From the NCBI RefSeq assembly GCF_003313395.1, contig NZ_QNFZ01000148.1:1-39757 (forward strand): a stretch of 39,757 nucleotides of DNA. The letters run 5' to 3'. Below the pieces are notes generated by a model that saw only the letters and a list, made by a program, of their open reading frames with translations, made no database searches and was not told the DNA's origin. Shown here piece after piece: positions 6,990-13,573 of this stretch. This DNA is from Nonomuraea lactucae (GTDB lineage: Bacteria > Actinomycetota > Actinomycetes > Streptosporangiales > Streptosporangiaceae). A program made the translations under genes and the position numbers. The stretch's first letter is position 1, and each line of letters begins with the position of its first letter.

Positions 6990-8084
6990 GTGATGGAGAG
7001 CTCTTTGCCAGGTCTCGAGGCGATCCTTCTGGTCGGCGGGCAGGGCACCCGCCTGCGCCCGCTGACGCTCGGCACGCCCAAGCCGCTGCTGCCGACCGCC
7101 GGCGTGCCGTTCCTGGCCCACCAGCTGGCCCGTGCCCACTCGTTCGGAGTGCGCAGGATCGTCTTCGCCACGTCGTACAAGGCGGCGATGTTCGAGCCCG
7201 CCTTCGGTGACGGGTCGGCGTTCGGCCTCTCGCTGGAGTACATGACGGAGGAGACGCCGCTCGGCACCGGCGGGGCCATCCGCAACGCCGCCGAGGCCCT
7301 CACCGCAGCTCCCTCCGACCCGGTGCTCGTCCTCAACGGCGACATCCTCTCCGGCCACGACATCGGCGACCAGGTGCGCACCCACATCGCCAGGGGCGCC
7401 GCTGTAACGCTCCATCTGACGGAGGTCGACGACCCGACCCGCTTCGGCTGCGTCCCGACCGACGGCGACGGGCGCGTCACCGCCTTCCTGGAGAAGACCC
7501 CCAACCCGGTGACCAACCGGATCAACGCCGGTTGCTACGTCTTCACCCGGTCGGTCATCGACCGGATCCCGCGCGGCGAGGTCGTCTCGGTGGAGCGGGA
7601 GACCTTCCCGGGGCTCATCGAGTCGGGCGAGCTGGTCCTCGGGTACGCCGACCGCACCTACTGGCTCGACGTCGGCACCCCTTCGGCGTTCGTCCGGGGT
7701 TCGCGCGACCTGGTCCTCGGCCGCCTGGCCTCCCCGGCGCTGCCCGGCCCGGCGGGCGAATACCTCGCGCTCGACGGCTCCGACGTCTCGCCCGAGGCCA
7801 AGGTCAACGGCGGTTCCGCGGTGGGCGCCGGCGCGGTCGTCGAGGCGGGCGCGGTCGTCTCAGGCAGCGTGCTGAGCGACGGGTGCGTGGTCTGCTCGGA
7901 GGCGACGGTGGTCGACTCGGTGATCGGGCGCGGCGCCCGGGTCTGCTCGGGCACGGTGGTGCGCGACGCGGTGATCGGCGACGGGGCGGTGGTGGGGCCG
8001 GGCAACGAGCTGCAGGCGGGCGTACGGGTGTGGCCGGGCGTCGAGCTCCCCGAACGCGCCGTCCGCTACTCGAGCGACCTCTGA
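6990..8084 (+). CDS. Sugar-1-phosphate nucleotidyltransferase (mannose-1-phosphate guanylyltransferase-like)
   Basis: The 364-residue protein has an N-terminal nucleotidyltransferase domain with the signature GGQGTRLRPLT (from residue 16) and the downstream KPLLP lysine region, then VLNGDIL near residue 112. From about residue 255 it turns into a left-handed beta-helix with many hexapeptide-type repeats rich in V, G and A. This architecture matches GDP-mannose pyrophosphorylases and related enzymes, which make GDP-mannose from mannose-1-phosphate and GTP. The phosphomannomutase and SIS isomerase encoded at 28447-31093 would supply its substrate. Starts at GTG 6990, ATG 6993 or TTG 7005 are all possible; TTG 7005 has the best-placed GGAGAG. 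A glucose-1-phosphate substrate cannot be excluded. Confidence 0.88.
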   Translation: MMESSLPGLEAILLVGGQGTRLRPLTLGTPKPLLPTAGVPFLAHQLARAHSFGVRRIVFATSYKAAMFEPAFGDGSAFGLSLEYMTEETPLGTGGAIRNAAEALTAAPSDPVLVLNGDILSGHDIGDQVRTHIARGAAVTLHLTEVDDPTRFGCVPTDGDGRVTAFLEKTPNPVTNRINAGCYVFTRSVIDRIPRGEVVSVERETFPGLIESGELVLGYADRTYWLDVGTPSAFVRGSRDLVLGRLASPALPGPAGEYLALDGSDVSPEAKVNGGSAVGAGAVVEAGAVVSGSVLSDGCVVCSEATVVDSVIGRGARVCSGTVVRDAVIGDGAVVGPGNELQAGVRVWPGVELPERAVRYSSDL

Positions 8085-8266
8085 CGCGCACCGGCGCGCC
8101 GGTCCCTTCACTCATTGACCCGCGCTCGACATGGTTCGAGCTATCAGACCTCTGTCAGACCTTCGTCGCCGCGGTGCTCCGCTGCTCCCGCCAGTCAGTG
8201 CGGGACGGCCGACGCGCCGGTGAGATGCGCTGGCCATCCCAGGCAGTGACGGCCGACGGTGTCGAT
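8085..8266. other. Intergenic region with hairpins and an 11-bp-phased direct repeat
   Basis: No gene is seen here. There is a 14-base perfect palindrome, ACCGGCGCGCCGGT, at 8090-8103 just after the nucleotidyltransferase stop, and a six-bp stem GCTCGA/TCGAGC at 8124-8141; either could end transcription weakly. TCAGACCT is repeated at 8144-8151 and 8155-8162, an 11-bp phase. This segment marks the left border of the accessory island. Confidence 0.4.
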
Positions 8267-8638
8267 TCAGATGGCGCGGACCGTCCAGAGCTGCTTCCTG
8301 TCACGTGGATCGCACGGTAGCGGCCAGGTTGTCCGGGCACCCGCTCCGTCCTTGGCGTCGCCCGACGCGAGGCACTTACCGGTGAAGCCGTTCTTGATCA
8401 ATGTGCCCCCCGGGTGTTTCACGTGGACCCACTGCTGGCGGAGGTATGGGTGGTTCGACCCCGGCCCGTCCTTTTTCAGGCAAGGCTCAGTTCGGATGCC
8501 GCCCACGTCCATGAGGCAGCGTCCGGTCTCCTCTCCCACTTGGCGGCGGCGTGGGCTGTGCCCGGCACGGTGGCGGCACCGGCGGTCGCCATACCGACGA
8601 CCAAGGCGACGCGCGCGGTGCTCCGCTTCCAGCTTCAC
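8267..8638 (-). pseudogene. Secreted ricin-type lectin-domain protein, frameshifted remnant
   Basis: The reading frame ending at 8267 encodes a short beta-trefoil-like segment of about 80 residues with two QxW-type motifs (QQW and QLW) and the G-R-C-L and G-K-C-L repeats typical of ricin B lectin subdomains. The start of this frame (MKL...) does not continue as a signal peptide. In the next frame, between about 8630 and 8535, there is a clear Sec-type signal peptide: Lys/Arg, then ARVALVVGMATAGAATV, then an AHAAA cleavage region. The protein therefore needs one frameshift near 8630 and a compensating one near 8540. It is either a decayed gene or two sequencing errors. Its length is also less than one full trefoil, favouring decay. 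Confidence 0.5.
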
Positions 8639-8880
8639 ATTCGATGTCTCCTACTCGGTTCCTCATCGGATGTCCGCGACGCCCGCCGCGCCCGGTCCGG
8701 CCGAGGTCTGCCCGGGGCGCCTCCGCCGGTGGTATCCCAGCATGCCGTGTGTCGCGATCGTCGCCATCCTGCGGCGCCGCACTGTCCACCTGACACCCCC
8801 AGCGACTGTCCAATCGTTATCGCCCCCTGTACGGCGCCGACCGGCCGACCGGCCTCCAGCACCACCGCCGACGTGACCGT
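8639..8880. other. Intergenic stretch without a recognised gene
   Basis: I see no convincing coding sequence on either strand. AGGAG-like sequence at about 8646-8652 (minus strand) suits a former ribosome binding site of the lectin remnant. The stretch ends at the abrupt start of the repeat copy at 8881. Confidence 0.35.
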
Positions 8881-9142
8881 GTCACAGAGGCATGGCATGG
8901 ACTCGGCGGGAGGAGGTCATCTTTACTTGGATGGGGGCAGGCAAGCCCCACCAGTCCGGTTTCGGCCTTAGCGTGACGGCAGAAGGTCAGCGGGTCTGGC
9001 TCGGCGATCCTGACGGGCCGAGTTGGCGACCGCCGACGTAGCACGAACTTTGCGCCAGCAGTACCACCTCACCCCAGAGGTGCTGCGGTGGGTGGCACCT
9101 GTCGCAATCGAGGTCGCACGATGCGAGGCAGGCTGGATGGCC
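8881..9142 (+). pseudogene. Deleted second copy of the tgmB-tgmC cassette (fossil)
   Basis: Bases 8881-8909 match 11593-11621 inside tgmB with one mismatch. At 8909-8911 the match switches to 13256-13258 near the end of tgmC and continues to 9050 (equivalent to 13397) with one mismatch, including the tgmC stop codon. After an 84-base gap relative to the intact copy (13398-13481 absent), 9051-9142 matches 13482-13573 with two mismatches. The remnant thus encodes only the last 40 or so residues of TgmC behind a few residues of TgmB. Two G residues shared at the junction suggest deletion through microhomology. The near-identity implies a recent duplication or strong relatedness of two imported cassettes. 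Confidence 0.85.
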
Positions 9143-9614: not shown

Positions 9615-9845
9615 GTTCTATCACCAGCCGTTCATGTTTGGCTCACGGTGGCATTGTCATCAATCGAACTCGTGGTGCTGTTCTGTCGTGGTGAGTGCAT
9701 TAACTTGTTCCCCGACAGTTATTCCAAGAGTGGCCCTGAGCAGCTAATTTTGGGGCGTGAGTCACGCAACAGCGTCACACAATCCTGTTGTGGCGGCTGT
9801 TGTCGCGGACCGCTACTGCTGTTGTTCGCAGCTGAACGGAGCAAG

Positions 9846-10670
9846 ATGCCAGCCGAACCCGAGCTAGTTCCACCTACGGCCCCAGATGTCGCCTTTGGTG
9901 CCGAACTGCGGAAACTTCGCAATCTTCAAGGATGGTCGCAAGACGCCTTCGGGAAGAGAGTCGGCTACTCGGGGACCATGATCGGCTTCATCGAACGAGC
10001 ACAACGGCCGACACCGGAAGCGTTCGTCACGCGAGCAGAGGAGGTTCTAGGGCTCAGCGGGGAGCTGGTGAAGCTCTGGGAACGGATCGACCCAAGGGCG
10101 GCTCCGCCCTGGTTCAGGCAGTGGCCGAAGATCGAGTCGGCCGCCCGCCTGATACGGAGCTGGGAGCCTCTCCTCGTTCCGGGCTTGCTGCAGTCGGCGG
10201 ACTACGCTCGGGCAGTCCTACGCGGCGTCCCCGGTGCGACAGAAGAGGAAGTCGAAGAGGCACTTGCAGCCCGACTGCAGCGGCAAACGATCTTCAATCG
10301 GGCGTCGCCCCCCATCATCGCGGCCGTGCTGGATGAAGGAGTCCTATACCGCCCCATCGGCGGCAAGCAGGTCATGCGACAACAGCTACAACGGTTGTTG
10401 CTGCTCATGGACAATCCAAGGATCACCATACAAGTCGTCCCGCTTGAGGCCGGCGTGACCACTGGTCTCCTCGGAGGCTTCGCCATCGCGCAGCTTTCCG
10501 AAGCCAAGGACTGGGCCTACCTGGAGTCCGCCAGCGATGGCCAAGTAACCGATCGCGTTGACGAGGTTCAGGACATTAGCCTGAGATACGACACGATCCG
10601 TGCATGGGCACACCCCCTGTATGTCACCAAGGGCCTGATCAGCGAGGCGATGGAGAGGTATGAGCAATGA
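9846..10670 (+). CDS. XRE-family helix-turn-helix regulator with DUF5753 domain
   Basis: The 274-residue protein has an N-terminal HTH at about residues 18-75 (LRKLRNLQGWSQDAFGKRVGYSGTMI...) and a C-terminal DUF5753 region from about residue 90 onward, with the typical FRQWPKIESAARLIRSWEPLLVPGLLQ segment and the final ISLRYD-x-IRAWA motif. Such proteins are abundant in Streptomyces and relatives and are usually paired with a DUF397 gene. The ATG at 9846 is chosen because GGAG lies seven bases upstream and it starts just before the HTH; the longer frame back to 9603 is Cys-rich nonsense. The stop overlaps the DUF397 start by four bases. It is a likely regulator of the downstream RiPP genes. 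Confidence 0.93.
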   Translation: MPAEPELVPPTAPDVAFGAELRKLRNLQGWSQDAFGKRVGYSGTMIGFIERAQRPTPEAFVTRAEEVLGLSGELVKLWERIDPRAAPPWFRQWPKIESAARLIRSWEPLLVPGLLQSADYARAVLRGVPGATEEEVEEALAARLQRQTIFNRASPPIIAAVLDEGVLYRPIGGKQVMRQQLQRLLLLMDNPRITIQVVPLEAGVTTGLLGGFAIAQLSEAKDWAYLESASDGQVTDRVDEVQDISLRYDTIRAWAHPLYVTKGLISEAMERYEQ

Positions 10671-10885
10671 GTGATGATCTGTCCGAGGAGCTGGCTCACG
10701 CCGAGTGGCGCAAGGCCAAGGCCTCGGGCGCAAACAACGGCAACTGCCTGGAAGTTGCGCCCCTCTCTGGCGGGCGTGTCGCCATCCGAGACACAGAGGC
10801 ACTCGATCAGGGTCCGTTTGTCGTCAGAGATGCCGTTTGGGGTGCTTTCCTCGACGGTGCCAAGAAGGGCGAATTCGACTTCTAG
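10667..10885 (+). CDS. DUF397 protein
   Basis: This 72-residue protein has the family pattern: an N-terminal WRKAKASG segment (usually W-x-K-S-S-x-S), then N-x-x-N-C-L-E-V-A, and a C-terminal IRDTEALDQGPFVV strand pair followed by W-x-x-F-L. It overlaps the DUF5753 regulator by ATGA and forms the common two-gene unit in which the DUF397 partner is thought to modulate the regulator. A strong intrinsic terminator follows three bases after the stop, so this pair is a separate transcript from the RiPP genes. Confidence 0.93.
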   Translation: MSDDLSEELAHAEWRKAKASGANNGNCLEVAPLSGGRVAIRDTEALDQGPFVVRDAVWGAFLDGAKKGEFDF

Positions 10886-10887
10886 CC

Positions 10888-10920
10888 ACAAAGGCCCCCA
10901 GGATTCGCTGGGGGCTTTGT
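10888..10920 (+). terminator. Intrinsic terminator after the regulator pair
   Basis: ACAAAGGCCCCCAG (10888-10901) pairs with CTGGGGGCTTTGT (10908-10920) with a single bulge and a six-base loop, followed by a T-rich tail TTTGTC. It separates the regulator pair from the RiPP operon. Confidence 0.85.
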
Positions 10921-10953
10921 GTTTGTCTCGCGCGTCCTTGTTTGTGGTTGTCA

Positions 10954-10980
10954 GAACAAGCCCAACTTCTGGTCTTGTTC
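10954..10980 (+). promoter_or_regulatory. Inverted repeat, candidate operator of the RiPP operon
   Basis: GAACAAG at 10954-10960 and CTTGTTC at 10974-10980 are perfect inverted copies whose centres lie 20 bp apart, about two helical turns. They lie between the terminator of the regulator pair and the precursor gene, where the tgm promoter must be. The adjacent XRE protein is the obvious candidate ligand; that is inference. Confidence 0.45.
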
Positions 10981-11036
10981 AGGACCCAGCATCTAGCTTC
11001 AGGTGAGGATCTGTCTCTTCATCTGGAGGTCTCACC

Positions 11037-11285
11037 ATGCCGAACGGTCAGACGACTGCGCGCCGCCCTTGGGGCCTGACACGAGCCACCAGGCTCCACG
11101 CACCGGCCCCCAAGCCATACGCCACTGTCCTGCTCGACGACGCCACCCAGGTCACGCAGTTCTTCGACGACAAGCAGAGGGTGCTGGACATGAGCACGTT
11201 CCAGACGGTGACCCTGTCGAGGCCGCATGACGGTGCGGCGAACGCACCCCAGTCGGCGGATGACTCCAACACCGACCAGAAGTAG
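11037..11285 (+). CDS. tgmA: Putative ATP-grasp-modified RiPP precursor
   Basis: This 82-residue peptide has the layout of the TIGR04186-type precursors. The N-terminal leader carries R-P-W-G-L-T-R (residues 10-16), then a Y-A-T-V-L-L-D-D strand-like segment (28-35), a T-x-F-F-D-D region, and a hydrophilic C-terminus rich in Ser, Thr, Asn, Asp and Gln. Such peptides are substrates of ATP-grasp enzymes that join side-chain carboxylates to hydroxyl or amine side chains. An Asp65-Gly66 pair sits in the presumed core and could be the site for a PIMT-like methyltransferase. GGAGG lies nine bases ahead of the ATG. The ligase gene starts inside its 3' end, so all three genes are coupled. The exact core and cleavage site are not visible. 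Confidence 0.85.
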   Translation: MPNGQTTARRPWGLTRATRLHAPAPKPYATVLLDDATQVTQFFDDKQRVLDMSTFQTVTLSRPHDGAANAPQSADDSNTDQK

Positions 11286-12264
11286 CAGATTGCAGTCCCC
11301 GCGGAGCACCGTCCTAGTGATCACCTCGGTGGAGGACGTAACCGCCAACCTGGTGGTCATGGCGCTTAACGAGCATCGAGGCGTGCAGGTGGCGCGCATA
11401 GATCCTGCGGATATCGGTGATGCGCTGGTGTTTGGCACACACATGGGCGCGGGGCTCGGCCGGTGGTCAGGTCGGCTCCGCACGCCGAGCCGTGACGTAG
11501 CACTGGATCAGGTCGGGGCGGTGTACTACCGCCGCCCCACGCCATTCTCTACCCGGTTCGCTCACCTGCCTGAGAGGGAACGTGAGTTCGCTGTCACGGA
11601 GGCATGGCATGGACTCGGCGGTGTCCTCTACAACCTGCACGGCACCGCGTACGTCAATCATCCCGCCGCGATCACCCGGGCCGACTTCAAGCCTGCGCAG
11701 CTCCAGATGGCAGCCCAGCTCGGGATGACCGTCCCGCGGACTCTGATCACCAACGACGTGTCGCAGGCACGTGAGTTCGCTGCTGACGGCCCGATCATCT
11801 ACAAGTCGTTCAGAGGGGTGCCACCTGCTCCGGATGGTCGGGTCACGGCGATTTGGACGCAGTCTGTCGCCGAGCACGAGCTTGATGACTCGATCTCGGT
11901 GACCGCGCACATGTTCCAGACGGAGGTGTGCAAGGAGGCGGACGCCAGGGTGACCGTGATCGGTCGACGGGTGTTCGCGTACCGGATCACGTCACCCGAT
12001 GGCGCGCTGGACTGGCGCCAAGGCGACTGGGATGCGCTGGTTCACGAGCCGATCGACGTACCCCGGCTGATCGAGGGAGCTCTACACGCCTACCTCGACA
12101 GCTTCGGCTTGGTCTTCGGCTGCTTCGACTTCGCGATCGAGGCAGAGACCGGACGATGGGTCTTCATCGAATGCAACCCCAACGGGCAGTGGGCTTGGCT
12201 GCCTGGGGCCAGTGAGATGGCTCAAGCCTTCGCTGACGAGATCCTGGAAGGATGGTGGCCGTGA
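11260..12264 (+). CDS. tgmB: ATP-grasp RiPP maturase (graspetide-type ligase)
   Basis: The protein has about 334 residues with an ATP-grasp fold: an N-terminal Rossmann-like domain (VLVITSVEDVTANLVVMALN), a central ATP-binding lysine region (I-Y-K-S-F-R-G with Lys182), and the metal-binding F-I-E-C-N-P-N-G-Q-W segment with Glu304 and Asn306. This fits TIGR04187-type peptide maturases, which activate acidic side chains of the precursor as acyl phosphates and form ester or amide crosslinks. The ATG at 11260 is preferred; the GTG/ATG frame is open from 11227 and TTG 11290 is also possible. It overlaps tgmA by 26 bp and tgmC by about 4 bp. A 29-bp piece of a second copy survives at 8881-8909. Confidence 0.9.
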   Translation: MTPTPTRSSRLQSPRSTVLVITSVEDVTANLVVMALNEHRGVQVARIDPADIGDALVFGTHMGAGLGRWSGRLRTPSRDVALDQVGAVYYRRPTPFSTRFAHLPEREREFAVTEAWHGLGGVLYNLHGTAYVNHPAAITRADFKPAQLQMAAQLGMTVPRTLITNDVSQAREFAADGPIIYKSFRGVPPAPDGRVTAIWTQSVAEHELDDSISVTAHMFQTEVCKEADARVTVIGRRVFAYRITSPDGALDWRQGDWDALVHEPIDVPRLIEGALHAYLDSFGLVFGCFDFAIEAETGRWVFIECNPNGQWAWLPGASEMAQAFADEILEGWWP

Positions 12265-13388
12265 CCACGATGGCCGCACAGCTCCGCCAAGCACTGGCGG
12301 AGAGCGTCAAGTCCCCCGATTGGCACGATGCGTTGCAGGCGGTGCCACGCGCAGACTTCCTGGGAGACGCCGTCTACAGACACGACCCGGATCGCGGCTG
12401 GGTGCCCACGCATCGCACGGAGATGAGCCCCGAAGAGTGGCTCACCCTGGCGTACACGGATGAGACATGGGTTACCCAGATCGACGGTGTGATGGCGGAA
12501 GACGCGATCGAGCCCGTCACGATCCTGCGGCCTACGTCATCATCCACGCAACCGAGCCTGGTCGTGCGGATGCTCGAAGCCGCGGGCATCCGCGAAGATC
12601 AGACAGTCCTGGAGATAGGCACGGGTACCGGCTACTCCACGGCGCTGATGTCCCACCGCCTGGGCGAGGACGCCGTCACGTCGATCGAGTATGACCCCGT
12701 GATCGCGACTCGGGCGAAGCGCGCCATCAACGGAGCAGGCTACGCACCCACGCTGATCGAGGGCGATGGACTGGACGGGTATGAGGGCGGCGCTCCCTAC
12801 GATCGACTGATCGCCACGTGCGCGGTGCGAACCATCCCTCTGCCCTGGCTGCGGCAGGTCAAGGAAGAAGGAACCATCACGGCGCCCATGTTGGGTTGGC
12901 TGGGCGGAGTCGCGTTCGCGCATCTCCGAGTCAGTATGGACGGCACGGCAAGTGGCCGATTCCTCGCGGATGACGTCTATTTCATGCCGGCGCGGGCGCA
13001 CGCCGCGCCTCCGCGCCCTACCTTGTGGATGGGCGTCGGCGAAGTCAGTCGCAGTGAGCTCGACCCGGCGATCCTGAAGGACGACACAGCGCTTTTCGTG
13101 GCTCAACTCGCCATCCCGCAGGCTCACCATGGTTGGGCTGAGGACACCCTCACCCTTCACGATGTGAGTTCTGGCTCTCAGGCCGACATCAGCCCATCAC
13201 CTGGCGGCGGCTGGGTGGTCCACCAGCATGGGCCACACCGCCTGTGGGACATGGTGGAGGAGGTCATCTTTACTTGGATGGGGGCAGGCAAGCCCCACCA
13301 GTCCGGTTTCGGCCTTAGCGTGACGGCAGAAGGTCAGCGGGTCTGGCTCGGCGATCCTGACGGGCCGAGTTGGCGACTGCCGACGTAG
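12261..13388 (+). CDS. tgmC: PIMT-like methyltransferase of the ATP-grasp RiPP system
   Basis: The 375-residue protein has an N-terminal helical part, an S-S-S-T-Q-P-S segment before the SAM fold, motif I E-I-G-T-G-T-G-Y-S-T from Glu118, and a long C-terminal extension ending in GFGLSV...VWLGDPDGPSW. This matches TIGR04188-type methyltransferases, homologues of protein L-isoaspartate O-methyltransferase. In studied relatives they methylate an Asp carboxylate of the crosslinked peptide, leading to an aspartimide. GTG 12261 is chosen because GGAAGG lies nine bases upstream and it overlaps the tgmB stop as GTGA; in-frame ATGs at 12252 and 12270 are alternatives. The last 131 bases are duplicated at 8911-9041. 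Confidence 0.9.
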   Translation: MTTMAAQLRQALAESVKSPDWHDALQAVPRADFLGDAVYRHDPDRGWVPTHRTEMSPEEWLTLAYTDETWVTQIDGVMAEDAIEPVTILRPTSSSTQPSLVVRMLEAAGIREDQTVLEIGTGTGYSTALMSHRLGEDAVTSIEYDPVIATRAKRAINGAGYAPTLIEGDGLDGYEGGAPYDRLIATCAVRTIPLPWLRQVKEEGTITAPMLGWLGGVAFAHLRVSMDGTASGRFLADDVYFMPARAHAAPPRPTLWMGVGEVSRSELDPAILKDDTALFVAQLAIPQAHHGWAEDTLTLHDVSSGSQADISPSPGGGWVVHQHGPHRLWDMVEEVIFTWMGAGKPHQSGFGLSVTAEGQRVWLGDPDGPSWRLPT

Positions 13389-13573
13389 CACGAACTTCAA
13401 ATCGAACTACTGGTGGCGGTTGCGACCGGCGGCCGGTCTGTGCCCGCCGTGGGAATGTCGTGCCATGGGGCCGGTCGATACTGCGCCAGCAGCACCACCT
13501 CACCCCAGAGGTGCTGCGGTGGGTGGCACCTGTCGCAATCGAGGTCGCGCGATGCGAGGCAGGCTGGATGGCC
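13258..13573 (+). repeat. Direct repeat, intact copy (partner of 8911-9142)
   Basis: This stretch covers the last 131 bases of tgmC plus 185 bases of downstream DNA. The partner copy upstream lacks 13398-13481. Together the copies flank about 4.3 kb holding the hypothetical gene, the regulator pair and the three tgm genes. Recombination between them would remove the whole module. Confidence 0.9.
13397..13573 (-). pseudogene. Possible 3' remnant of a minus-strand gene with a Cys-rich segment
   Basis: On the minus strand a frame ending at 13397 reads with good protein-like composition: G-H-P-A-C-L-A, then D-L-D-C-D-R-C-H-P-P-Q-H-L-W-G-E-V-V-L-L-A, and a Pro/Thr-rich tail. No start or ribosome binding site is seen, and the similarity between the two repeat copies begins abruptly at the Gly-His-Pro codons. 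The copy at 9051-9142 keeps the Cys-rich part but has lost the tail through the 84-bp deletion. I do not recognise a family. It may be the broken end of a gene that once lay downstream of tgmC. Confidence 0.25.

Follow-up and report, generated by a model that had tools for sequence, protein, structure and literature searches.

The window analysed here, a stretch of 39,757 nucleotides (nt), is one contig (C811; NZ_QNFZ01000148.1) of the 8.67 Mb draft genome of the soil actinomycete Nonomuraea lactucae. On its + strand lie, in this order, a gene for an XRE-type regulator with a DUF5753 domain, a gene for a DUF397 protein, a terminator-like hairpin, and genes for a precursor peptide, an ATP-grasp ligase and an enzyme resembling protein isoaspartyl methyltransferases (PIMTs). 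We consider it very probable that the last three genes constitute a graspetide operon of group 13, the class combining an ATP-grasp enzyme with a PIMT for which the published term is graspimiditide (PMC13001092, PMC10787088), with aspartimide formation at Asp65 of the precursor. This kind of cluster is already known, and the genes, the class and the likely chemistry are those that a preliminary description of the same DNA had supposed. In the published literature on graspetides together with Nonomuraea or DUF397 we found no account of this particular cluster, supplementary files and most subscription papers being outside the scope of that search.

Precursor, ligase and methyltransferase genes

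The precursor gene (positions 11037-11285, + strand) encodes 82 residues, with a leader containing an RPWGL motif and a core formed by about the last 30 residues. It scores 34.5 bits against TIGR04186, over the curated NCBIfam cut-off of 25, whereas the Pfam precursor model PF14408 stays below threshold (19.3 vs 25); a search of the Protein Data Bank with the precursor sequence returned nothing relevant. It is followed by the genes for the ATP-grasp graspetide synthetase (11290-12264, +; 324 residues; TIGR04187, 369.4 bits vs a curated cut-off of 350) and for the PIMT-like Asp O-methyltransferase (12252-13388, +; 378 residues; TIGR04188, 395.3 bits vs 380, with further support for PIMT from Pfam). 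The preliminary description had named these three families and placed the three genes at these positions, and on both counts the profile searches agree with it. Its label "graspetide/imiditide-type" holds in its first half only: imiditides and type I pamtides have a PIMT and a precursor without a primary ATP-grasp enzyme, and the window carries a full-length ATP-grasp gene.

The three genes had also been described as overlapping one another. This is the case for ligase and methyltransferase, which share 13 nt, and not for precursor and ligase, since TTG 11290, just past the precursor stop, is the most likely start of the ligase. A 345-residue ligase frame beginning at 11227, inside the precursor gene, was rejected as over-long from the starts of its relatives: in 44 of 57 there is no in-frame start upstream of the precursor stop, the start lying a few nt after it instead, and the ligase ATG (6977) of the closest operon, locus L051, aligns with TTG 11290. 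Because the window itself and 13 relatives also allow an overlapping start, the choice of TTG 11290 rests on synteny.

As to folds, AlphaFold gave for the ligase, from 39 aligned rows, a model with a predicted local distance difference test (pLDDT) score of 90.9, which matches the solved graspetide ligases AMdnB, PruB, MdnC and CdnC with template modelling scores of 0.66-0.89, and the columns of F279-D280 and ECNPNGQW (294-301) are invariant in the 39 ligases. The similarity to peptide-modifying ATP-grasp enzymes, on which the preliminary description had made its proposal depend, is present, as the TIGR04187 score of the maturase indicates. The PIMT-like protein has a GTGTG motif at residues 123-127, the three glycines of its S-adenosylmethionine motif being kept in 48 of 48 rows, and an additional C-terminal domain with WxxxGxP at residues 342-348, a motif described as typical of the PIMTs of ribosomally synthesised and post-translationally modified peptides (PMC13001092). 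Of this motif, all 48 homologues have the Pro and 45 have the Gly; the first position is Trp in 28 and Tyr in 15. The model of this enzyme (48 rows, pLDDT 92.7) matches PIMTs, the best being that of T. maritima (1dl5, 374 columns), which according to a review shares the C-terminal extension (PMC13001092).

Core register and predicted product

To place the locus among its relatives, 346 genomes of the order were surveyed, scoring the best six or fewer ligase candidates and the best five or fewer PIMT candidates per genome. This gave 108 ATP-grasps over the TIGR04187 cut-off (two of them with an internal stop) from 88 genomes. Among the matches listed, 80 of the 108 have a TIGR04188 match within 600 nt of the ligase; at the remaining 28 loci a tblastn search found a same-strand PIMT match within 2.5 kb downstream in 26, two of these matches being partial at contig ends. 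A PIMT thus adjoins 106 of the 108 ATP-grasps, and the two ligase loci at which tblastn detected none within 2.5 kb downstream both belong to N. cavernae.

Homologous precursor open reading frames (ORFs) were matched 71 times, corresponding to 61 distinct sequences with the window included. When 60 of the 61 cores are anchored on Asp-Gly (L003, which has no such pair, was left out), Ser or Thr stands at -4 in 48, at -6 in 53, at -8 in 50, at -11 in 43 and at -14 in 47, while Asp or Glu stands at +10 in 56, at +11 in 50, at +15 in 50 and at +19 in 43. Anchoring makes the conservation of Asp-Gly circular in this set; in the larger set the pair is found in the corresponding stretch of 84 of 87 distinct cores. 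In three N. endophytica loci (L009, L085, L146) Asp-Ala replaces Asp-Gly in the same register and the PIMT is present, and Ala is not among the residues that the review lists after the target Asp (PMC13001092).

The window core follows this register. The predicted ester donors Thr57, Thr59 and Ser61 (11205-11219, +) are at -8, -6 and -4 from Asp65, with Thr54 at -11 as a possible fourth; Asp65-Gly66 (11229-11234, +) is the predicted aspartimide site; and the predicted acceptors Asp75, Asp76 and Asp80 (11259-11276, +) are at +10, +11 and +15. The core reads SRPHDG-x7-ADDS and terminates in Gln-Lys at +17, without Asp(+19). The preliminary description had not recognised it, yet it has identifiable relatives: the profile search proposed there puts precursor and maturase over their cut-offs, the core alignment shows a register common to these relatives, and among the loci compared SRPHDG is shared by six distinct cores of the genus. 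Three of them (window, L051, L008/L171) have a TDQK end without Asp(+19), and three (L099, L101, L108) retain this residue. The only distinguishing trait of the present member is a core slightly shorter than in most relatives. A coupling between loss of Asp(+19) and loss of Thr(-11) was considered and rejected, as the window, L006 and L008 all retain Thr(-11); of these three, the window and L006 have no Ser/Thr at -14, and L008 has it. Over 29 core representatives the donor count correlates with the acceptor count (Spearman 0.42, p 0.023) and, at p 0.084, the Ser/Thr count with tail length (Spearman 0.33); the donor-acceptor correlation is uncorrected for relatedness and is for this reason given no weight by itself.

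A natural experiment is provided by N. cavernae. At one of its PIMT-less loci (L208, equal to L052 and L168) the loop Asp has become Gly, and neither Thr(-8) nor Asp(+15) remains. These joint losses fit methylation at Asp65 and an ester between Thr57 and Asp80, as one clean event and not as statistical proof. When absence of the PIMT and lack of Asp-Gly were compared over 79 loci in a Fisher test, p was 0.006 (where a PIMT is present, 74 loci have Asp-Gly and 2 do not; where it is absent, 1 and 2), although the rows are related, both exceptions come from one species and one of the two still has Asp-Lys. This set leaves out 15 loci whose ATP-grasp belongs to another class, with <35% identity and without a PIMT, and the 9 of 88 loci without an identified precursor; in the by-eye comparison of cores, loci with identical ligase stretches were merged.

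By analogy with characterised members of the class, the ATP-grasp enzyme would bind the leader and phosphorylate Asp side chains of the precursor tail, and Ser and Thr hydroxyls would attack the phosphorylated Asp, giving nested omega-esters from the loop outward. The most likely pairs would be Ser61-Asp75, Thr59-Asp76 and Thr57-Asp80. With three tail Asp in the window core, three or four esters are predicted, the possible fourth joining Thr54 to the C-terminal carboxylate of Lys82. That this carboxylate could serve as an acceptor is suggested by SsfA, which is reported to carry five esters although its last 12 residues contain just four Asp, the fifth acceptor being, by its authors' inference, the C-terminus; the methylation site of SsfA is likewise an Asp-Gly pair, Asp81-Gly82 (PMC10787088). 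Once the hairpin is crosslinked, the PIMT-like enzyme would methylate Asp65 in its loop, the resulting methyl ester would collapse onto the nitrogen of Gly66 to yield an aspartimide, which can hydrolyse to isoaspartate, as it does in SsfA, and the leader would be removed by a protease. Published precedents include the two nested Thr-Asp pairs of fuscimiditide (PMC12291112), the order of ester installation in amycolimiditide, from the loop down the stem (PMC13003496), and the description of four graspimiditides as Thr-Asp ester stem-loops with the methylated Asp of Asp-Gly in the loop (PMC13001092).

Several observations weigh against this interpretation. The ester pairings depend on the register and on one natural double loss. 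The second PIMT-less N. cavernae locus (L204, equal to L003 and L120) retains an Asp, as Asp-Lys, before the acceptors, and by itself neither supports nor excludes Asp65 as the target; locus L166 keeps Asp-Gly without a PIMT, but its ATP-grasp is truncated. Conversely, by-eye inspection finds a residue other than Gly after the loop Asp in PIMT-linked cores (Asp-Ala in L009, Asp-Ser in L229, Asp-Arg in L210, Asp-Asn in L213, Asp-Met in L202), and in L115 the PIMT is accompanied by a precursor frame without Asp-Gly. No peptidase or membrane transporter family was detected among the 16 window ORFs scanned, which reach to 31 kb, and since loci L163 and L166 of the same genus are decayed, expression of the window operon is not to be assumed. 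On the other side stand the results computed for the window itself, namely gene content, family membership, modelled folds and the register in which donors, loop Asp and acceptors are conserved. Crosslinking with aspartimide formation at Asp65, as the preliminary description had suggested, remains the best reading because family membership, the modelled folds, the conserved loop Asp-Gly and one natural coupled loss all point to it.

The upstream regulator pair and alternative explanations

The XRE regulator (9846-10670, +) matches PF13560 (HTH_31) with 46.5 bits and PF19054 (DUF5753) with 163.5 bits; its ORF from TTG 9603 is over-long, and ATG 9846 fits the relatives, L165 and L166 aligning from the first residue of a query begun at 9849. 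The DUF397 gene (10667-10885, +; PF04149, 54.8 bits) overlaps it by 4 nt. Pfam therefore confirms the pair that the preliminary description had placed upstream; that it is the operon's own was overstated. A terminator-like hairpin seen by eye (10887-10921, +), similarly placed in L164, L165 and L166 by the same inspection, separates it from the biosynthetic genes, and the pair was not found beside the nearest operon and occurs elsewhere without one. Because of the intervening hairpin and the nearest operon, we regard the pair as a neighbour and not as a fixed part of the operon.

An operator had been proposed as well, presumably the palindrome GAACAAG-N13-CTTGTTC at 10954-10980. It exists and is unique in the window, but as an operator it is weak and was rejected: when the intergenic region was shuffled 2000 times under a first-order Markov model, 190 of the results held some perfect repeat with 7-bp arms, and a looser form was not found in seven related loci. 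A possible precursor promoter is suggested by TAGCTT (10994-10999, +), a -10-like element found as TA[GT]C[GT]T in a similar place in five of five XRE-linked loci, window included. Separately, a ATTCCAAGAATGC-like element lies upstream of the XRE gene at 9720-9733, a possible autoregulatory site; by eye a similar one is seen in L163, L164, L165 and L166 and a loose one in L162, with none seen in L161.

By analogy, the pair may plausibly regulate the operon, because co-occurrence of DUF397/DUF5753 with graspetide groups 11 and 13 has been published (PMC13097080) and because the WhiJ9/BldB system offers a precedent, WhiJ9 activating iosA by binding upstream of it and loss of the DUF397 protein BldB, which hetero-oligomerises with BldB9, raising iosA (PMC10294661). 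The pair might instead be a toxin-antitoxin module or an unrelated regulator that lies upstream by chance, which we hold to be unlikely, though it is the strongest of the alternatives. A toxin-antitoxin role was once proposed for such pairs, but 14 DUF397 proteins of S. coelicolor are reported to have shown no toxicity (PMC10364602). For such an alternative speak, besides the hairpin, the nearest operon and the pair in L161 without a ligase, the neighbourhood counts for DUF397: at 73 of the 80 named loci the sequence extends 3.5 kb or more upstream of the ligase, and DUF397 lies within 2.5 kb upstream in just 12 of 73 (8 on the same strand) and within a like stretch downstream in 6 of 74. However, XRE homologues, whichever strand they lie on, are found more often in the 3.5 kb upstream (30 of 73) than in an equally long downstream stretch (8 of 74), and the published co-occurrence with group 13 argues in the same direction. 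In 12 hand-picked loci the pair was directly upstream in L164, L165, L166 and L169 (with a gapped XRE match) and on the other strand in L167; it was not found in L168, L170, L171 and L172 (the last with weak, short XRE matches only), and L161, L162 and L163 have the pair but no graspetide ligase. About 2 kb downstream of the related pair in L162 there is an imiditide-like pair (7380-8640), a short Gly/Lys/Pro-rich precursor frame followed by a PIMT homologue of 35% identity.

A decaying, non-producing cluster, whose intact-looking frames would be the survivors of an operon being lost in the genus, appears improbable. In its favour is a 263-nt chimeric remnant of the same genes at 8880-9142 (+), in which 30 nt of the ATP-grasp gene are joined to the 3' end of the PIMT gene and the region downstream of it: 8880-8909 corresponds to 11592-11621 (29/30), 8909-9050 to 13256-13397 (99.3%) and 9051-9142 to 13482-13573 (97.8%). 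The remnant, which matches the intact operon at 97-99% identity and lacks 84 nt of the right copy, suggests a recent duplication followed by deletions. Elsewhere in the genus, L163 (G013:C79) has the XRE/DUF397 pair directly followed by a broken PIMT, with no precursor or ATP-grasp match, L166 keeps only the first 113 residues of its ATP-grasp, and in L040 and L046 the PIMT is split into separate pieces. Against decay, all three window genes are full length and stop-free, and the closest operon, L051 (G019, Nonomuraea glycinis NZ_BMNK01000001), to which the window operon is 84% identical in DNA, is full length too. Between these two operons the precursors are 72.6%, the ATP-grasps 80% and the PIMTs 83% identical. 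Next to the remnant, the stretch 8200-8877 holds a small reverse-strand ORF with a weak, sub-threshold match to ricin-type lectins, and its DNA recurs on another contig of this genome, C834 (G000:C834 284-3751), in several pieces that are 69-90% identical.

A more specific proposal, that in this Nonomuraea subfamily the stem's last Asp was lost, that the Lys82 carboxylate took its place so that Thr54 closes the peptide end-on, and that the short, capped hairpin, bearing its electrophilic aspartimide, is the ligand sensed by the XRE-DUF5753/DUF397 pair in a self-signalling loop, seems to us a long shot. That the PIMT is a general isoaspartate repair enzyme, as its superfamily fold would permit, is hardly credible given its adjacency to 106 of 108 ligases, its TIGR04188 score over the cut-off, the additional domain with WxxxGxP, and the joint absence of PIMT and loop Asp at one N. 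cavernae locus.

Comparison with known systems

For group 13 graspetides more than 1300 clusters have been reported and four products characterised. To this class the present locus adds a defined core subfamily, SRPHDG, represented among the loci compared by six distinct sequences, all from one genus; the N. cavernae relative, in which the methyltransferase, the target Asp and a putative ester pair are all absent, lends support to both assignments; and a silent cluster might be switched on by way of the regulator pair.

As in fuscimiditide, amycolimiditide, albusimiditide and SsfA(BM), precursor, ATP-grasp and C-terminally extended PIMT lie in one operon, and as in the graspimiditides a stem-loop is expected, with donors before and acceptors after the loop Asp-Gly. 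Unlike them, the window has the SRPHDG-x7-ADDS core with its Gln-Lys end and lacks the Asp(+19) kept in 43 of 60 cores. The three or four esters predicted here compare with two reported for fuscimiditide (PMC12291112), four for amycolimiditide (PMC13003496) and five for SsfA (PMC10787088). The N. glycinis operon L051/L170 shares the TDQK tail, but no XRE/DUF397 pair was found upstream of it, an HTH/TPR protein being there instead. In the order of an XRE gene and then a DUF397 gene, the regulator pair resembles Scr1/Scr2 and WhiJ9/BldB9, types that regulate antibiotic production and development (PMC10364602, PMC10294661, PMC6262351), and it differs from them in being placed before a graspetide operon. 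Finally, imiditides and type I pamtides use a PIMT-like enzyme of the same wider clade, but they are described as having no ATP-grasp and a precursor that is about 45 residues long, with much Gly, Pro and Asp (PMC10787088).

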